From: Oscillospiraceae bacterium
Lineage (GTDB): Bacteria; Bacillota; Clostridia; Oscillospirales; Oscillospiraceae
DNA: 52,306 nt
Direction: 5' to 3'
Assembly (NCBI GenBank): GCA_022800665.1
Contig: JAAWQS010000012.1
Coordinates: forward strand, 1 to 52,306
Position numbers and translations under genes: made by a program. Below the pieces are notes generated by a model, which was not told where the DNA came from, did no database searches, and saw only the letters and a list, made by a program, of their open reading frames with translations. Positions 7,560 to 15,613 of the stretch are shown here, piece after piece (the stretch's first letter is position 1; every line of letters begins with the position of its first letter).

Positions 7560-7594
7560 AAGCCGGTGGAGCATTCAAACTCCACCGGCTTTGT
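7560..7594. terminator. Bidirectional terminator between nagB and the EndoQ-helicase gene
   Basis: AAGCCGGTGGAG (7560-7571) pairs perfectly with CTCCACCGGCTT (7580-7591) around an 8-nt loop. TTTGTCC follows on the plus strand. It lies between convergent genes. Confidence 0.85.
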
Positions 7595-7600
7595 CCATGT

Positions 7601-10600
7601 TCAAAACAGGCTGAACTGCTGCGCGGGCCGCTCCCGCTGCTTTAACGTTTCTCTCACAACGCCGCCCGGCAGATCCACCAGAAACGGCGACGGCTCCCCG
7701 CCTGTGGTCAGGATCAGCTCCTCCCGCGCCCGGGTCATGCCCACAAACAGCAGCCGCCGCTCCTCCTCCCCGTCCGCCGGACGGCTCTGGGTCTCCAGCG
7801 GCAGCGTCCCGCTGTTCACCCCGGCCACAAACACCGCCGGGAACTCCAGTCCCTTTGCGGCGTGGAGGGTCATCAGCCGCACCGCGCCGGACTCCCACCG
7901 CTTTCCAGACGCCCGCCGCAGGTCGCCCTCCTCCCCGGCGGCCAGCACGTTCCAGAACTCCTCGAAGGTACTGTGGAAGACCGCCATATTCCGCAGCCGG
8001 TCCAGAGCGTCCGTCTTTCCATATTTTGCCTCCCACTGCTCCGCCAGCTTCCACGGCTTCTCCTTTGCGGCGGAGAGGCGCCATTCCTCCGCCCGCTTCT
8101 GCCACACATCCGGCGGGCCGAACTGCCGGACCGTCTCCGCAAGGGCGGCGGTGTCCTCCGGCTTTGCCAGCGTCCGGAAAAAGGCCAGGAAGCCCCGGAC
8201 CTCCTCCGCCTCCAGACAGCCGTCCCGTCCGCTGACAACACAGGGAATGCCGTCATGGCGCAGGCAGTTTTCCAGCAGACGCAGCTGGCGGTTGGTGCGG
8301 CAGAGCACGGCGATGTCGGAAAACGCCCTGGCCTCCCGGTCCCGGCCCATGTCCTGGGCCTGCAGCATGTCCACGCCGCCGGTCATGCGGATGATTTCCT
8401 TGGAAATAAACACCGCCTCGCTGAAGTCGTCCGAAGCGCGGACCAACCGTACCGCCGGGCCGGAGGGCCTCTGGGGAACCAGCGTCCGGGGACCGCCCGG
8501 ATTCTTCTCAATGACCGGTAGGGCGGCGCGGAGGACCTCCGGTGTGGAGCGGTAGTTCTCCGCCAGCCGGATTACCCGCGTGTCCGGCCTGTCTGCCGTC
8601 AAACGGCGGAAGCACTGTCCCGATGCCCCCCGGAAGCCGTAGATAGATTGGTCCGGATCACCGATGACAAAGAGGCTCTTTCCGTTCCGGCTCCAGGACT
8701 GCACCAGAGCATACTGCATATCGTTGATATCCTGGAATTCATCCACCAGCAGGTGGGAAAATCCCGCCTGTCCCGCTGTATCCACCTCCAGGGCCTTAGC
8801 CAGCAGGTCGTCAAAATCCAGCAGGCCCAATGCCTGTACCCGGTCGCAGTAGGCGGTATACAGCTCCTCCTCCAGTCCGGCTTCCTCCAGGGACAGGCCG
8901 TTTTTGACCTTGGACACGGCCTGGAGCAGCTTTTCTCCGGAGCCGTCCGGCAGGACCTCCGCCGCAAGCCGCAGGGCCTCGCTCCGTCCCAGGAGCGCAA
9001 CATCTCCCAGCAGGCCCAGGCAGATGGCGTGGAACGTGCCAATCCGCATCCGGGACACCGCCCGCTTGCCGCCCAGACGGGCCTCCAGCCTCTGGCGCAT
9101 CTCCGCCGCCGCCTGGTTGGTGAAGGTCACGGCGGTGATCTCCCCGGCCTTCACCCCCTTCTCCTCTATGAGGTAGGCAATCCGGGAAACCAGGGTCTTG
9201 GTTTTCCCGGTACCCGGTCCCGCCGCCACAGCTGTGCAGGGCTCCGCCGCCGTCACAGCAGCCTCCTGTTCCGGATTGAGCCGGGCGGGCGCGGCGGCGG
9301 GGACCTCTGCCGGGACGGGGGCCGATTTTTTCAGCGTCCGCTTCCGCACCGGTTTTTTTCCTGGGACCTCCAGCCCAAAGAGAGACAGCTGTCCGCCGAA
9401 CCGCTCGATTTCCGCCGGAGCCAGCAGGGAGATGATGCCGTACTGCCCGTCAAATCCCGGTCTGCGCTCTACCTGCCCCAGCCGCAGGCGGCGGACGCCC
9501 TCGGCCACACAGGGACCGGCAATCCGCTCAATATCCGGGATAGACGCCTCCCGCAGAATCCGGAATTCCGGACCCATCTCCTCCAGCATTTTTTCGTACA
9601 GCGCGGCAGTGCGCTTCCCGGCGGCGGACAGGCCGGTGGACGCGGCAATCACCTCCGGCAGAGGGGCCAGGCTCTGGAAGGGCTTGGCGTTCTCAGGCCG
9701 GAACCCCTCCGGACGGTCCGCCAGAACCTCCACCCGGTGCTCCACGCCGATGGTCAGCTTTTTACCGCACACAGGGCAGATGCCGTCCCGCGCCTGGGTC
9801 TCCACCGGGGTGAGGCAGACGCCGCAGTTCCGGTGTCCATCCAGGTGGTATTTACCCTCCTCCGGGAAAAATTCCACCGTGCCGCAGAATCCATCCCCGG
9901 TGCGGATGGCCCGGACCAGCTCCGGATAGGACAGTCCCGTATCCAGCAGGTCCGCCTCCCGGCCCAGCTTGCCGGGGGAGTGGGCGTCGGAGTGGGAGAC
10001 CAGAGTGAGCCGGTCCAGGGCGGAGAGCCGCCAGTTCATGGGCGGGTCGGAGGAGAGTCCGGTCTCCACGGCGTGGATCTGGCCGGCAAGGCTGCCAAAG
10101 CATTCCTCCATGGTGTCAAAGCCGGAGAATGCGCCGAACAGGGAGAAGTGGGGCGTCCAGATGTGGGCGGGAATCAGCTCCGCGTCCGGACAGGCCTCCA
10201 AGGTCAGCTCCAGCAGGTCCCGGCTGTCCAGACCCAGGATGGGACGGCCATCCGAGCGGATATTGCCCACCGCCTCCAGCCGGGCCGACACCTCGTCCGC
10301 CGCCTCCAGGCTGGGGAGGAGTATCAGATGGTGGACTTTCCGGGTCTTGCCGTCCCGCTTGTAAATGCAGCTGATCTCCCCGGTGACGAGAAACCGGGTG
10401 GGTTCCCCGGATCCCGCCAGCCGCAGCTCTTCCCGCAGGGTATACAGCCCATCTTCCGCGGGGGCCAGCTGCTCCCGCATTTCCGCCCGCCAGGCGGGAT
10501 GGGTAAAGTCGCCGGTACCGGTGACGGCAATGCCTTTTTTCCGCGCCCACCAGTCCAGATGGGGCAGGTCGCAGTCCCGGCTGGTGGCGCGGGAGTAACG

Positions 10601-10630
10601 GGAGTGAATGTGCAGGTCGGCTATGTACAT
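7601..10630 (-). CDS. Endonuclease Q-like PHP nuclease fused to UvrD-type helicase
   Basis: A 1009-residue two-part DNA repair protein. Residues 1 to about 410 resemble the endonuclease Q family: PHP metal motifs DLHIHS (5-10) and SHSDAH (212-217), and a zinc module with CxxC pairs at 269/272 and 285/288. EndoQ enzymes nick DNA 5' of deaminated bases and abasic sites. After a Pro/Ala linker, residues about 450-1009 form an SF1A helicase: Walker A GPGTGKT (471-477), DEFQD, GDPDQSIYGFRG, LAENYRST, TLHAAKGLEF and VGMTRAREE. Two peptides, QLSLF (414-418, end of the nuclease part) and QFSLF (1005-1009, extreme C-terminus), fit the beta-clamp-binding consensus. The joint role in repair of deaminated DNA is inferred. 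AAAGGAG precedes the ATG. Confidence 0.9.
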   Translation of the reverse strand: MYIADLHIHSRYSRATSRDCDLPHLDWWARKKGIAVTGTGDFTHPAWRAEMREQLAPAEDGLYTLREELRLAGSGEPTRFLVTGEISCIYKRDGKTRKVHHLILLPSLEAADEVSARLEAVGNIRSDGRPILGLDSRDLLELTLEACPDAELIPAHIWTPHFSLFGAFSGFDTMEECFGSLAGQIHAVETGLSSDPPMNWRLSALDRLTLVSHSDAHSPGKLGREADLLDTGLSYPELVRAIRTGDGFCGTVEFFPEEGKYHLDGHRNCGVCLTPVETQARDGICPVCGKKLTIGVEHRVEVLADRPEGFRPENAKPFQSLAPLPEVIAASTGLSAAGKRTAALYEKMLEEMGPEFRILREASIPDIERIAGPCVAEGVRRLRLGQVERRPGFDGQYGIISLLAPAEIERFGGQLSLFGLEVPGKKPVRKRTLKKSAPVPAEVPAAAPARLNPEQEAAVTAAEPCTAVAAGPGTGKTKTLVSRIAYLIEEKGVKAGEITAVTFTNQAAAEMRQRLEARLGGKRAVSRMRIGTFHAICLGLLGDVALLGRSEALRLAAEVLPDGSGEKLLQAVSKVKNGLSLEEAGLEEELYTAYCDRVQALGLLDFDDLLAKALEVDTAGQAGFSHLLVDEFQDINDMQYALVQSWSRNGKSLFVIGDPDQSIYGFRGASGQCFRRLTADRPDTRVIRLAENYRSTPEVLRAALPVIEKNPGGPRTLVPQRPSGPAVRLVRASDDFSEAVFISKEIIRMTGGVDMLQAQDMGRDREARAFSDIAVLCRTNRQLRLLENCLRHDGIPCVVSGRDGCLEAEEVRGFLAFFRTLAKPEDTAALAETVRQFGPPDVWQKRAEEWRLSAAKEKPWKLAEQWEAKYGKTDALDRLRNMAVFHSTFEEFWNVLAAGEEGDLRRASGKRWESGAVRLMTLHAAKGLEFPAVFVAGVNSGTLPLETQSRPADGEEERRLLFVGMTRAREELILTTGGEPSPFLVDLPGGVVRETLKQRERPAQQFSLF

Positions 10631-10662
10631 GGGGCGTACGCTCCTTTGTCTAAGATAGGGAT

Positions 10663-10691
10663 AGTATACGGCATTTTCCGCCCGGTGGCAA
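10663..10691 (-). promoter_or_regulatory. Promoter of the EndoQ-helicase gene
   Basis: Minus strand TTGCCA (10691-10686), 17 nt, TATACT (10668-10663), about 33 nt before the start codon. It is divergent from the aldolase-operon promoter. Confidence 0.6.
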
Positions 10692-10794: not shown

Positions 10795-12087
10795 ATGAAC
10801 ATGCAATACATCCATCCCGCAGACCAGCTGGTCATGTTTATGCAGCGGATTTACGACAAGGGTCTGACCACTACCTCCGGCGGCAACCTGTCCATCATGG
10901 ACAGCGATGGCAATATTTGGATCACTCCCGCCAGCGTGGACAAGGGGACGCTGACCCGCCGGGATATCATCTGCGTCCATCCCGACGGCTCCTGCGAAGG
11001 TCCCCACAAGCCCTCCTCCGAGCTGCCCTTCCACGCTTCGGTGTACAAAATGCGCCCCGACCTGAAAGCCGTGCTCCACGCCCATCCCCCTGCGCTGGTG
11101 GCCTTCTCCATCATCCGCAGGGTCCCCAATCTGGACCTGATCCCCTCTGTACGAAAAATCTGTCCCGACGTGCAGACCGCCGTCTACGGCGTCCCCGGCA
11201 GCGAGGACCTGGGGGACAAGATCGGGCAGGTCTTCGCCGGGGGCTGCGACATTGCCATGCTGGAAAATCACGGCGTATGCATCGGCGCGCCGGATATGTT
11301 CGCCGCTTTCCAGCGGTTTGAGACCCTCAATTACACCGCCGAGCTGGAGATTCTGGCCGGAAAGCTGGGGCCGGTGAAGGCCCTGTCCCCCCAGGACAAC
11401 CGCATGGCGGAGAGCTCCTACCACACCAAAATGGACGACTTTATCCCCCACACCTTCACCTCCGAGGAGCTGTCCGCCCGGCGGGACATGATTACCCTCA
11501 TCCGCCGCTCCTACCGCATGAACCTTTTCACCGCCACCCACGGCACCTACTCCGTCCGCCTCTCCGACGGCAGCTTTCTCATTACCCCCTTTGGCATGGA
11601 CCGGGCCTATCTGGAGGAGGACGACCTGGTGCGGGTCAAGGCGGGCATGAAGGAGGTGGGGAAAATCCCCTCCCGTGCGGTCCGCTTCCACGAGGAGGTA
11701 TACCGCAATAACCCGGACGTACGGGCGGTGTTGCAGGCCCACCCGGTCCACGCCGTGGCCTTTGCGGTGACGGACGCCGCTTTCGACCCCCGGACCATTC
11801 CGGAGAGTTACATACTTCTGCGGGATATCAAAAAAATGCCCTACCGGGAGATGTACGCCAACCCGGCGGAGGCGTCCCGCGCCTTCGGCCCTGCCAACCC
11901 CGCCGTCATGGTGGAAAACGACAGCGTTATTGTCACCGGAAACAGTCTGCTCCAGGCATTTGACCGTCTGGAGGTGCTGGAATCCACCGCCCACTCCATC
12001 ATCAACAGCAGTACGCTGGGGGAGATTGTCCACATTACCGGCCAGGAAATCGAGGACCTGAAGACCGCCTTCCGCCTGGAGGACTGA
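10795..12087 (+). CDS. Tandem class II aldolase/adducin-family protein
   Basis: A 430-residue protein made of two class II aldolase/adducin domains in a row, twice the usual length of about 210-230. The first half (about 1-215) has the substrate loop TSGGNLS, the putative catalytic Glu76 in SSELPFH, and zinc ligands His95/His97 (LHAHP) and His159 (ENHG). It is probably an active metal-dependent aldolase or epimerase on a sugar phosphate. In the second half (about 225-430) the matching positions read TATHGTY, SRAVRFH, LQAHP and ENDS. The Glu and two of three zinc histidines are lost there, so that half is probably structural. It heads an operon with alpha-galactosidase. The exact substrate is unknown. 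Confidence 0.85.
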   Translation: MNMQYIHPADQLVMFMQRIYDKGLTTTSGGNLSIMDSDGNIWITPASVDKGTLTRRDIICVHPDGSCEGPHKPSSELPFHASVYKMRPDLKAVLHAHPPALVAFSIIRRVPNLDLIPSVRKICPDVQTAVYGVPGSEDLGDKIGQVFAGGCDIAMLENHGVCIGAPDMFAAFQRFETLNYTAELEILAGKLGPVKALSPQDNRMAESSYHTKMDDFIPHTFTSEELSARRDMITLIRRSYRMNLFTATHGTYSVRLSDGSFLITPFGMDRAYLEEDDLVRVKAGMKEVGKIPSRAVRFHEEVYRNNPDVRAVLQAHPVHAVAFAVTDAAFDPRTIPESYILLRDIKKMPYREMYANPAEASRAFGPANPAVMVENDSVIVTGNSLLQAFDRLEVLESTAHSIINSSTLGEIVHITGQEIEDLKTAFRLED

Positions 12088-12090
12088 GAG

Positions 12091-12720
12091 ATGAAACGGT
12101 TCAAACGAAGCCTGATGATGGTTACAGGGATTCTGTTTATCGGCATCTGCGTGGGCGCCTACCGCCTCAGCGCCTTCGGCGTGGACGCCTTTACGTGTAT
12201 GAATCTGGGCATCAGCGGCTTTCTCGGCATGTCCTTCGGCGCCTGGCAGCTGCTTATGAACGCGGCAATTCTGGCGGTGGTCTTCCTCAAGGCCCGCAAG
12301 TGCATCGGGGCGGGGACCATTGTGAATATGGTGGGCGTGGGGTATCTGGCGGACTTCATCTGCTGGCTGTTCCGGGGCGTGGAGATGACGCTCCCCATGC
12401 GAATCGGGGCGTTGGCCCTGGGAAGCGTCTTCGCGGGGCTGGGCGTGGCCTTTTACATGGTGGCGGAGATGGGCGTCGCGCCCTATGACAGCGTGGCCAT
12501 TATGCTGGAAAACGCCTCCAAGGGGCGTATTCCCTTCCAGCGGGCGCGGGTACTCAGCGACGTGGCGGTGGTGATTGTGGGCGTGGTATTCTGCCTGCTC
12601 TCCGGAGGCGAGCTGCGCCTGATTATCGGCATCGGCACCATCTGCAACGCCCTGTTCAACGGACCGCTGATCCAATTTTTCAAAACACACGCGGCGGAAC
12701 CTATTATGTCCCGCGGCTAG
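12091..12720 (+). CDS. YczE/YitT-type membrane protein (first copy)
   Basis: A 209-residue integral membrane protein with about five or six hydrophobic segments, resembling the Bacillus YczE/YyaS/YitT group of uncharacterised membrane proteins. Shared marks include the early SAFGVDAF segment and the later AEMGVAPYDSVAIML segment. It starts 3 nt after the aldolase stop; GGAGG inside the end of that gene serves as its binding site. A related protein lies on the other side of the alpha-galactosidase gene. A transport or export function is often assumed for the family but is not established. Confidence 0.8.
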   Translation: MKRFKRSLMMVTGILFIGICVGAYRLSAFGVDAFTCMNLGISGFLGMSFGAWQLLMNAAILAVVFLKARKCIGAGTIVNMVGVGYLADFICWLFRGVEMTLPMRIGALALGSVFAGLGVAFYMVAEMGVAPYDSVAIMLENASKGRIPFQRARVLSDVAVVIVGVVFCLLSGGELRLIIGIGTICNALFNGPLIQFFKTHAAEPIMSRG

Positions 12721-12737: not shown

Positions 12738-14957
12738 ATGAGCATTTTTTACCACGAATCGACCCAAACCTTCCATCTGACCAACGGAGAGATCAGTTAT
12801 CTGATGAAGGTACTGCCCAACGGCGCGCTGGGCCAGCTGTACTGCGGCCAGGCGGTCCGGGACCGGGAGAGCTTTGACCACCTGCTGGAGCTGCGCTCCC
12901 GGCCCATGAGCTCCTGCGTGTTTGAGGGGAACCGCTATTTCTCCCTGGAACACTGCAAGCAGGAGTACCCCGCCTATGGCTCCACAGACTTCCGCCACCC
13001 TGCGGTGGAGCTGTGCCAGCCTAACGGCAGCCGGATCACAGATTTTGTCTACCACTCCCACACCGTCATGCCGGGCAAGCCCGCCCTGCCGGGCCTGCCC
13101 GCCACGTACTGCGAGGCGGACGGGGAGGCGGAGACTCTCACGGTCTGCCTGCGGGACCCGCTGCTGGAGGTCGAGCTGTACCTCAACTACACCATCTTTG
13201 CCGGACAGCCCGCGCTGGCCCGCTCCGCCTGTCTGAAAAACCGGGGCGGGCAGGACCTGCATCTCACTGCGGCTATGAGCCTGAGCCTGGACCTGCCGGA
13301 CAGCGGGTATGAGTTCGTCCATTTCTCCGGCGCCTGGTCCCGTGAGCGGTTCATGAAGGTCCGGCAGCTGGAGCAGGGCATCCAGTCGGTGGAATCCACA
13401 CGGGGCCACTCCTCCCACAACCACAATCCTTTTATTATGCTGCGCCGTCCCGGCACAGACGAGGACAAGGGCGAGGTCATGGGCTTCTCCCTGGTCTACT
13501 CCGGAAACTTTCTGGCCCAGGTGGAGGTGGACAACTGGGATACCGCGCGGGTGACAATGGGCATCAACCCCTTCGGCTTTGACTGGAAGCTGTCCCCCGG
13601 CGGGGAGTTCCAGACGCCGGAGGCGGTGATGGTCTACTCCAGCCAGGGCATGGGGGCCATGAGCCGCGCTTTCCACAAGCTCTACCGTACCCGTCTGGCC
13701 CGCGGGTACTGGCGGGACCGTCCCCGGCCCGTCCTGCTCAACAACTGGGAGGCCACCTATTTTGATTTCACCGAGGATAAGCTGGTGTCCATTGCTGAGG
13801 CGGCCCGGAAGGACGGCGTGGAGCTGTTTGTTCTGGACGACGGCTGGTTCGGCGCACGGACCCACGAAAGCGCGGGCCTGGGGGACTGGGCAGCCAATCC
13901 AGACCGTCTCCCCGGCGGCATCACCCGGCTGGCAGAGCGGGTGGAGCGGCTGGGCTTGCGGTTCGGCCTGTGGTTTGAGCCGGAAATGGCGAACAAGGAC
14001 TCGGACCTCTACCGCACCCACCCGGATTGGATCATCCAGACGCCGGGACGCCGGTCCTCCCCCGGACGGAACCAGTACGTGCTGGACTTCTCCCGCCCGG
14101 AGGTGGTGGACCATATCTATGGCATGATGGCAAAAATTCTCTCTGAGGCGAAGGTCTCTTACATCAAGTGGGACATGAACCGCAGCATCACGGAGGCGTT
14201 CTCCGCCGCCCTGCCGCCGGACCGCCAGGGGGAACTGTTCCACCGGTATATCCTGGGTGTGTACGACCTCTACGAGCGGCTGACCACAGCTTTCCCTCAT
14301 GTGCTGTTTGAGTCCTGCGCTTCCGGCGGCGGACGATTCGATCCGGGTCTGCTGTACTATGCGCCCCAGGGCTGGGCCTCCGACGACTCCGACGCGGTGG
14401 AGCGGCTGAAGATTCAGTACGGCACCTCCTTCTGCTATCCCATCAGCTCCATCGGCGCCCACGTCTCGGCGGTACCCAACCACCAGCTGGGCCGGATCAC
14501 GCCGCTGTCCACCAGGGGCAACGCGGCCTGCTTCGGGGCCTTTGGCTATGAGCTGGACCTGAACCGTCTGACCGGAGAGGAGAGGGAGCTGGTGCGGGAA
14601 CAGATCGCCTTTGTGAAGGAGTACCGGCAGACGCTCCAGTTCGGAGACTTCTACCGCCTGCTGTCCCCCTTTGAGGGCAATTTCACCGCCTGGATGGCAG
14701 TCAGTCCGGACAGGCGGACCGCGCTGGTGGGCTGGTACAAGACGCTCAACGAGGTCAACGGCCCCTACCGCCGGGTCAAGCTGCGGGGTCTGGACCCGGA
14801 CCTGGCCTACACCGTGGACGGCGGGGCGGAACACTATGGCGACGAGCTGATGCGGGTGGGGCTGACGGTCTCGGACGCTGCCGCCGGAGAGTCGGAGCAG
14901 CGCAGCGGCATTACCGGCGACTTTGCTTCCCATATCTTTGTGGTAAAGAGCGTATGA
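12738..14957 (+). CDS. Alpha-galactosidase, glycoside hydrolase family 36
   Basis: Hydrolyses terminal alpha-galactosides such as raffinose or melibiose. The 739-residue length and motifs fit the cytoplasmic GH36 group of Bacillota. The nucleophile aspartate lies in KWDMNR (about Asp479). The acid/base region is WASDDSDAVERL (about 546-557). ESCASGGGR and GAHVSAVPN are further family marks. No signal peptide is present, so substrate must be imported by a transporter that is not obvious in this operon. GGAGG precedes the ATG. The stop overlaps the next gene by 4 nt. Confidence 0.95.
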   Translation: MSIFYHESTQTFHLTNGEISYLMKVLPNGALGQLYCGQAVRDRESFDHLLELRSRPMSSCVFEGNRYFSLEHCKQEYPAYGSTDFRHPAVELCQPNGSRITDFVYHSHTVMPGKPALPGLPATYCEADGEAETLTVCLRDPLLEVELYLNYTIFAGQPALARSACLKNRGGQDLHLTAAMSLSLDLPDSGYEFVHFSGAWSRERFMKVRQLEQGIQSVESTRGHSSHNHNPFIMLRRPGTDEDKGEVMGFSLVYSGNFLAQVEVDNWDTARVTMGINPFGFDWKLSPGGEFQTPEAVMVYSSQGMGAMSRAFHKLYRTRLARGYWRDRPRPVLLNNWEATYFDFTEDKLVSIAEAARKDGVELFVLDDGWFGARTHESAGLGDWAANPDRLPGGITRLAERVERLGLRFGLWFEPEMANKDSDLYRTHPDWIIQTPGRRSSPGRNQYVLDFSRPEVVDHIYGMMAKILSEAKVSYIKWDMNRSITEAFSAALPPDRQGELFHRYILGVYDLYERLTTAFPHVLFESCASGGGRFDPGLLYYAPQGWASDDSDAVERLKIQYGTSFCYPISSIGAHVSAVPNHQLGRITPLSTRGNAACFGAFGYELDLNRLTGEERELVREQIAFVKEYRQTLQFGDFYRLLSPFEGNFTAWMAVSPDRRTALVGWYKTLNEVNGPYRRVKLRGLDPDLAYTVDGGAEHYGDELMRVGLTVSDAAAGESEQRSGITGDFASHIFVVKSV

Positions 14958-15613
14958 CAAGAGGAAGACTGCCGGCCGTACGGACCGCGCTGCTGCTGGC
15001 GGGCCTGACGGTAGCCCATCTGGGCGTCACCCTGTTTCTGGAATCGGACTTGGGGTCCGACCCCTTTAATGTGCTGGTGCAGGGATTGTACCGGAGCATC
15101 CCCTGGCCGGAGCGGATGAGCCACGGGCGGGTCCATCTGCTGGTGTGCCTGCTGATTGTGCTGGTCCTGCTGGGGATTGCCCGCAGCTATGTGCGCATCG
15201 GGACCGTGCTCTGCATGGCCTTGGGCGGCCCGATTATCGACCTGTGGACCATCCCCCTGGCCCCCCTCTTTCACGACGGCATGGCTATGGGCTGGCGTCT
15301 GCTGGCGTTGGTACTGGGGTGCGTGATTCTGGCTTTCGGCATGACCATCGTTATCCGCTCAGAGGCGGGAACGGGGCCGAATGATCTGGTGGCGGTCATT
15401 ATCAGCGATTTTTCTAAAAAACCTTTCGGCGTGGTCCGTGTGGCTGTGGACGCGGCCTTTGCCCTTGCAGGCTGGCTGCTGGGCGGCGTGGTGGGTCTGG
15501 GGACCCTGGTGTGCGCCGGACTGGTGGGGCCGTGCGCACAGGTGTTTCTCCCCGTCAGCGGGCGGCTCTGTGATGCGTGCCTGCGGCGGGCCGGAGAGAA
15601 AAATCCCCGCTGA
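14954..15613 (+). CDS. YczE/YitT-type membrane protein (second copy)
   Basis: A 219-residue membrane protein of the same loose family as the gene before alpha-galactosidase, with about five or six hydrophobic segments. The marks are ESDLGSDPFNVLVQGL early and RSEAGTGPNDLVAVIIS later, the counterparts of the GVDAF and GVAPYDSV segments of the first copy. It is coupled to the alpha-galactosidase by an ATGA overlap. The two copies are divergent in sequence, so they may form a heteromer or handle different substrates. Function is unknown. A strong terminator follows. Confidence 0.78.
   Translation: MTRGRLPAVRTALLLAGLTVAHLGVTLFLESDLGSDPFNVLVQGLYRSIPWPERMSHGRVHLLVCLLIVLVLLGIARSYVRIGTVLCMALGGPIIDLWTIPLAPLFHDGMAMGWRLLALVLGCVILAFGMTIVIRSEAGTGPNDLVAVIISDFSKKPFGVVRVAVDAAFALAGWLLGGVVGLGTLVCAGLVGPCAQVFLPVSGRLCDACLRRAGEKNPR

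Follow-up and report, generated by a model that had tools for sequence, protein, structure and literature searches.

A recurrent fusion of an endonuclease Q-type nuclease and a UvrD-type helicase with two beta-clamp-like peptides suggests one-chain repair of deaminated DNA in Bacillota

What would a bacterium do with a nuclease of the endonuclease Q (EndoQ) type and a UvrD-type helicase in one polypeptide? The question is raised by a gene in a 52,306-nucleotide stretch of DNA from an Oscillospiraceae bacterium (assembly GCA_022800665.1, contig JAAWQS010000012.1, positions 1 to 52,306), the whole of which is referred to here as the window. The encoded protein also carries two peptides that resemble ligands of the bacterial sliding clamp (beta clamp). 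They flank the helicase, and each is located in a segment for which disorder is predicted. Judged from sequence comparison and structure prediction, the fusion is probably a repair enzyme that is tethered to the beta clamp and uses a single chain to nick and unwind deaminated or abasic DNA. This interpretation rests on the EndoQ fold and active site of the nuclease module, the UvrD fold and motifs of the helicase module, the conserved and exposed peptides, and their linked history. We infer the clamp binding, the substrate, and the unwinding polarity of the fusion. The features of the locus are listed in Table 1.

The initial annotation had described an EndoQ nuclease joined to a superfamily 1A (SF1A) helicase, and matches to both are contained within the one 1009-residue frame. 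Residues 4–400 match the protein family TIGR00375 (E 5.7e-44) and residues 4–405 match PfuEndoQ (5zb8, E 4.5e-46). The TIGR00375 score of 151 bits is below the curated cut-off of 326.6. Proteins matching TIGR00375 were found in 203 of 398 genomes from the phylum, and only two of these genomes pass the cut-off, which therefore marks a narrower group. The predicted structure of the nuclease module has the overall fold of EndoQ. The metal-binding and active-site residues of PfuEndoQ are named in PMC4357722 and PMC8307549 (statements cited by PMC number come from excerpts of the papers); the residue numbering used here is that of 5zb8, from which the numbering of the SDAH motif in PMC4357722 is shifted by one. 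Equivalents of the PHP metal ligands D6, H8, H10, E76, H84, H139, E167, D193, and H195 are present in the window protein and invariant in all sequences of a 61-row alignment, which comprises the window protein and 60 of 89 other frames. The 29 frames outside the alignment were cut, broken, not fused, or dropped to limit near-duplicates, and the main homologue loci are the best 80 of at least 566 candidates together with same-genus copies. The pocket that accommodates uracil or hypoxanthine in EndoQ, formed by H139, G169, and S171 (PMC8307549), corresponds to H156, G191, and S193 of the window protein, which are likewise invariant (61/61). The expectation that the N-terminal part would retain the catalytic residues of EndoQ is thus borne out for metal and pocket positions. 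Zinc ligands C252, C268, and C271 of PfuEndoQ are retained, and C249 is replaced by a histidine, which is able to bind zinc.

The helicase module matches the UvrD N and C domains with E-values of 7.8e-54 and 1.6e-40, and the predicted structure agrees with an SF1A fold. Residues G471–T477, D630–D634, G657/D658/Q661/R667, T921/H923/K926, E956–R959, and T966/R967 include residues that are invariant in the alignment of homologues, and we take them to represent helicase motifs I, II, III, V, and VI. The module scores 306 of the 911 bits required by the equivalog cut-off for PcrA, 276 of 1144 for UvrD, and 292 of 951 for Rep, and it is therefore UvrD-like and not assignable to any of the three. The stretch between residues 811 and 917, where the 2B region is expected, has 106 residues in the window protein, compared to a median of 138 over the 61 sequences.

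The two peptides had been proposed to fit the published clamp consensus QL[S/D]LF, and at the positions read from the translation (residues 414–418 and 1005–1009) they do so in this form or in the broader form QxxLF (PMC12309361). Among 42 window frames taken longest-first (16,817 residues), the pattern Q[LMIF][SD]LF is found only in the fusion protein, where it occurs twice; the chance expectation, given the amino-acid make-up, is about 0.004 for a protein of 1009 residues. Both peptides are conserved in homologues, as the initial annotation required. All 61 aligned sequences have Q414 and Q1005, and F418 and F1009 are retained in 49 and 60 of them, respectively. In the wider set of 83 fused rows, in which the internal peptide was counted by alignment, Q414 is always kept, the pattern Q-x-[SDNTC]-[LMF]-[FLIM] fits 72 rows, and the four commonest forms are QISLF, QTSLF, QMDFF, and QLSLF. 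A C-terminal Qxx[LFM][FLM] is located within the last 20 residues of 78 of the 80 closed fused frames, the exceptions being L042, which is a broken frame, and L062. A second sample consisted of the 19 loci with the closest helicase-module matches among the 398 phylum genomes. Eighteen of them have the C-terminal peptide (L181 ends with EPTLF), and 15 have an internal Qxx[LMF] detectable by pattern; inspection by eye showed that the remaining four keep the glutamine, as GQIRFF in L180, QQATLF in L193, and GQ at the end of the stretch read in L179 and L182.

Both peptides are islands of conservation in variable sequence. The mean column entropy is 1.23 bits for residues 414–418 and 3.10 bits for linker residues 419–448; it is 0.84 bits for residues 1005–1009 and 2.87 bits for the preceding 20 residues. 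In the predicted structure, the predicted local distance difference test (pLDDT) score is below 50 over residues 415–447 and averages 51 in the last block, residues 1001–1009. Such low-confidence segments are as expected for peptides that require a partner. Other frames of the same genome were read as a control, and three hold candidate clamp peptides: a PolC frame ends with QITLF, a DinB frame holds QVSLF, and a second PolC-like frame, which is probably DnaE, holds QMDFF. Two PcrA-like frames of 890 and 762 residues are without a clamp-type C-terminal peptide, and a third helicase-like frame has 1195 residues. The only full-length match to the fusion protein in the source genome is the gene itself, and seven further matches are restricted to helicase parts.

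The fusion is widespread; the loci read belong almost exclusively to Bacillota, and the family appears to have arisen once. The source genome is a draft assembly (3.33 Mb, 194 contigs, 95.4% complete), a state in which an artefact is conceivable: the gene could be chimaeric, its enzyme decayed, or its two pentapeptides due to chance. The same architecture in records of the named strains Neglectibacter timonensis, Anaerotruncus massiliensis, and Eisenbergiella tayi, together with the intact checked active-site residues, refutes this explanation, and we give it practically no weight. In a tree of 102 nuclease domains calculated with a quick method, the nearest named relatives of the window protein are Bacillota, and the fused proteins and the window protein belong to a clade of 88 rows with a Shimodaira–Hasegawa-like approximate likelihood ratio test (SH-aLRT) support of 98. 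The standalone relatives L154, L155, and L161, with 55–56% identity, branch outside this clade, and 11 distant standalone proteins are further out. Four standalone genes are placed inside the fused clade in two places, L051 with L038 and L039 (support 99) and L119 beside L084 (93). This topology is explained most simply by a single fusion event, after which the helicase was lost twice. A search of the flanking DNA of the seven close standalone genes by tblastn detected no helicase module, a result that is weak for L051, where the contig ends about 450 bases past the gene. L119 and L051 end just before the position of GQxSLF. A fused copy from outside Bacillota, L073 from a metagenome-assembled genome of Treponema sp. 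UBA4873, is nested in the fused clade, possibly due to horizontal transfer or a binning error.

The internal peptide is absent from all seven close standalone proteins, and the pattern used for the fused frames matches none of 54 standalone relatives in their last 50 residues; a very loose pattern matches four of the 54, including QDEVF at the tail of L154. The internal peptide therefore apparently arrived with the helicase fusion, and its gains and losses seem to parallel those of the helicase. Bacterial EndoQ homologues have been reported to carry C-terminal clamp consensus sequences (PMC4858679), but they were not seen in the 54 standalone frames analysed here. A direct line from the archaeal PCNA-binding peptide to QLSLF is thus unsupported, and we rejected the possibility that the internal peptide was left over from the tail of a standalone EndoQ. 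When the helicase module was searched against the 398 phylum genomes, the closest matches were almost only in frames of at least 980 residues. The exceptions are an 847-residue frame in G221, which includes the nuclease part, and a 650-residue frame in G099, which may be a standalone or broken copy. Frames with weaker E-values mostly have 700–800 residues, which is the size of PcrA. A long helicase frame is present, as judged by eye, in 42 genomes besides that of the window, and all 42 contain a TIGR00375 match, paired per genome and not per frame. One genome, G206, encodes frames of 415 and 1127 residues that both match TIGR00375, and thus the two kinds can coexist.

EndoQ cuts DNA on the 5′ side of uracil, hypoxanthine, xanthine, and apurinic/apyrimidinic sites (PMC4858679, PMC8307549, PMC6202378), and the EndoQ of B. 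pumilus is active (PMC6202378). The contact between archaeal EndoQ and PCNA, on which the clamp hypothesis had been modelled, is confirmed by PMC4858679: PCNA binds the enzyme and stimulates it, acting through a C-terminal peptide of EndoQ, and a clamp link for bacterial EndoQ was already proposed there. The window protein differs from the known EndoQ enzymes (PfuEndoQ, 5zb8 and 7k30–7k33; TkoEndoQ; B. pumilus EndoQ) in being fused to a helicase, in its histidine as the first zinc ligand, in its second clamp-type peptide at the C terminus, and in its TIGR00375 score (151 versus 326.6 bits). It shares motifs and fold with the SF1A helicases UvrD, PcrA, and Rep, but it is far under their equivalog cut-offs and has a 2B-region stretch of 106 residues and a clamp-type C terminus. 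The nuclease of RecBCD belongs to a family other than that of EndoQ. Like the fusion, E. coli RecBCD joins a UvrD-family helicase to a nuclease and engages the clamp through a short peptide of RecB; unlike what is proposed for the fusion, the interaction of RecBCD with the clamp was reported to occur after Chi recognition rather than base damage, and one of two candidate peptides was validated (PMC13254535).

No paper on an EndoQ–UvrD fusion was found in the literature searched, which included few subscription papers; in the excerpts that name both EndoQ and UvrD, the two are treated separately, or UvrD is a table entry. EndoQ, UvrD helicases, and clamp peptides are each known, and their recurrent, conserved joining suggests a pathway that we did not find described. 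Work on EndoQ, as represented in these excerpts, centres on the nick and the contact with PCNA. The combination of a nick, a motor, and two clamp-type peptides proposes the next steps of repair in bacteria, testable with one purified protein.

Based on these features, a mechanism of repair can be proposed. The enzyme would be positioned by one or both of the two pockets of a clamp, either one that has remained on nascent DNA or one that was loaded at the end of a primer. The nuclease may then flip out a deoxyuridine, deoxyinosine, xanthine, or abasic residue and cut 5′ of the lesion, which would leave a 3′-OH and a downstream strand that starts with the lesion. The UvrD-type motor, which presumably translocates on the intact strand with 3′ to 5′ polarity, would peel the lesion strand away from its 5′ end, so that strand displacement would follow the direction of polymerase movement from the new 3′ end. 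A polymerase could extend the primer end exposed beside the clamp, and trimming of the flap and sealing of the nick would complete the repair. With its two peptides, a single chain might occupy both pockets of a ring or keep one of them free for the polymerase. The model of a clamp-tethered nick-and-unwind machine, which the initial annotation called coherent, gains support from the invariant active-site residues and the conserved peptides.

The fusion may provide a repair route in a phylum in which endonuclease V (EndoV) is present in only seven of the 398 sampled genomes, one of them with a partial match. The seven genomes span five families. Compared by eye, the lists of genomes with EndoV and with TIGR00375 share no entry (Fisher p 0.0064, with kinship ignored). 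The rarity of EndoV fits the assumption of the deoxyinosine role by EndoQ-type enzymes, and in the draft source genome neither EndoV nor exonuclease III had a match. We tentatively propose, with well under even confidence, that the fusion represents a widespread and so far undescribed bacterial form of long-patch nucleotide incision repair performed by one polypeptide whose helicase is bracketed by clamp peptides. The enzyme would fill both pockets of the beta ring or share them with a polymerase; after nicking at the lesion, it would remove the damaged strand in front of DNA synthesis that is tethered to the clamp. EndoQ-type enzymes including the fusion would carry deoxyinosine repair in a lineage nearly without EndoV.

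Several observations weigh against the assignment of the fusion to clamp-tethered repair. Only a micromolar dissociation constant was reported for a QLSLF peptide and the clamp of B. subtilis (PMC12309361); an affinity of this order would make two hooks useful. The internal peptide is the more degenerate of the two, with 49 of the 83 fused rows fitting Qxx[LM][FL], 27 having F at position 4 and F or L at position 5, and seven fitting neither form, and it is more degenerate in the second sample, for example GQLCFL. A glycine precedes the internal glutamine in all 61 aligned sequences, which is not accounted for by a clamp peptide alone. Together with the absence of the peptide from standalone nucleases, as for an interdomain element, the glycine and the variability of positions 4 and 5 would suit an internal GQxSLF that serves as an intramolecular docking site or hinge between nuclease and helicase, with the clamp bound by the C-terminal peptide only. 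This alternative, otherwise compatible with the proposed repair function, is in our opinion unlikely: the predicted structure, with its low pLDDT from residue 415, shows nothing docked there, the commonest internal forms resemble clamp peptides and one of them, QMDFF, recurs in the probable DnaE, and in the wider sample the glycine is replaced by glutamate in L181 and by glutamine in L193.

The source genome also contains a match to the uracil-DNA glycosylase (UDG) family and endonuclease IV, so that the fusion is not the sole route for uracil. Replacement of UDG by the fusion was rejected, as 18 of the 25 genus genomes, including the source genome, have a UDG-family match. UDG and endonuclease IV would be available for ordinary base repair if the fusion were instead a strand-specific nickase-helicase of post-replication or mismatch-type repair, to which the clamp gives strand direction and whose main substrate is not a deaminated base but, for example, mismatches, misincorporated nucleotides, or 3′ ends. 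A parallel exists in methylation-independent mismatch repair, whose MutL/UvrD part is similar to the combination of clamp peptides and a UvrD motor (PMC8744996). However, the invariance of the equivalents of pocket residues H139, G169, and S171 is hard to explain without deaminated-base substrates, and we regard a mismatch-type function as quite unlikely.

Further points against the repair function are that the fusion is patchy within the genus, has no conserved neighbourhood, and shows no sign of SOS control. Ten of the 25 genus genomes, many of which are incomplete drafts, have a match at E 1e-60; seven of the matches are fused over nuclease and helicase parts, one is a helicase-side fragment (G024), and two are standalone. 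Clustering of 599 frames from the surroundings of 89 loci gave a largest family with members at ten of them. A box with seven of eight SOS-like positions was found in five of 85 upstream regions, compared to three in one shuffle, and SOS control was dropped. The patchy presence could also indicate an anti-phage system, in which the nuclease-helicase would attack invading DNA that contains uracil or other modifications. An antiviral role has been suggested for Bacillus EndoQ (PMC8307549), and the helicase half scores against helicase models of PADLOC, best against GajB (E 1.2e-67), which is of the same helicase family, as are other UvrD-type defence helicases. All of the best 25 of 54 PADLOC matches peak in the helicase half, and the nuclease half is unmatched among them. 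Gabija consists of the GajB helicase and a separate, adjacent gene for the nuclease GajA. No such arrangement was found at the locus, where none of ten flanking genes (between positions 2437 and 16630) matches any PADLOC model at E 1e-5, and no neighbour family recurs in more than ten of the 89 loci. No copy was found in collections of phages, plasmids, and viral contigs, which were searched with the nuclease part only, the viral scan being made with only two peptide patterns; within these limits, a mobile element was rejected. A clamp-tethered enzyme would presumably act on the replicating DNA of the cell itself. An anti-phage function of the fusion is therefore very unlikely.

Table 1. Features of the fusion gene and its surroundings in window coordinates.
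Feature	Position	Strand	Remarks
endoQ-uvrD fusion gene	7601..10630	minus	1009 residues, single uninterrupted frame
EndoQ-type PHP/zinc nuclease module, residues 1-413	9392..10630	minus	
Zinc-binding loop H266, C269, C285, C288	9767..9835	minus	all four invariant 61/61
Internal beta-clamp-like peptide QLSLF, residues 414-418	9377..9391	minus	Q414 conserved
Disordered linker, residues 419-447	9290..9376	minus	low pLDDT, high column entropy
UvrD/PcrA-type SF1A helicase module, residues 448-1004	7619..9289	minus	
C-terminal beta-clamp-like peptide QFSLF, residues 1005-1009	7604..7618	minus	extreme C terminus
Ribosome-binding site AAAGGAG	10641..10647	minus	read from upstream sequence
Promoter-like TTGCCA-17-TATACT	10663..10691	minus	10/12 consensus matches; consensus-based only
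Terminator-like hairpin, 13 pairs	7560..7591	minus	consensus-based only; between fusion gene and convergent glucosamine-6-phosphate isomerase-family gene

The fusion gene starts with an ATG at position 10630, its last codon ends at 7604, and the stop codon occupies 7603–7601. The left neighbour, a glucosamine-6-phosphate isomerase-family gene, is convergent, and the right neighbour, a class II aldolase gene, is divergent, so the fusion gene stands alone. An operon partner was also rejected for the family as a whole, as the largest flanking family, whose representative resembles an ABC ATPase by eye, is limited to ten of the 89 loci. Clusters with the representatives YaaA, Nth, and RadC are present in four, three, and three loci, which is too few for an argument. 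A gene of the yaaA cluster (peroxide stress; the L095 copy is named) is located 3–11 bases upstream on the same strand in L095, L099, and L118, and genes of the nth or radC clusters lie near a few other copies of the fusion. In the window, the class II aldolase (10795–12087, plus strand) contains two Aldolase_II stretches within one 430-residue chain. It is followed by a glycoside hydrolase family 36 (GH36) alpha-galactosidase (12738–14957), which is flanked by two small proteins (12091–12720 and 14954–15613, plus strand) that look membrane-like by eye; only the latter matches a Pfam family, YitT_membrane.

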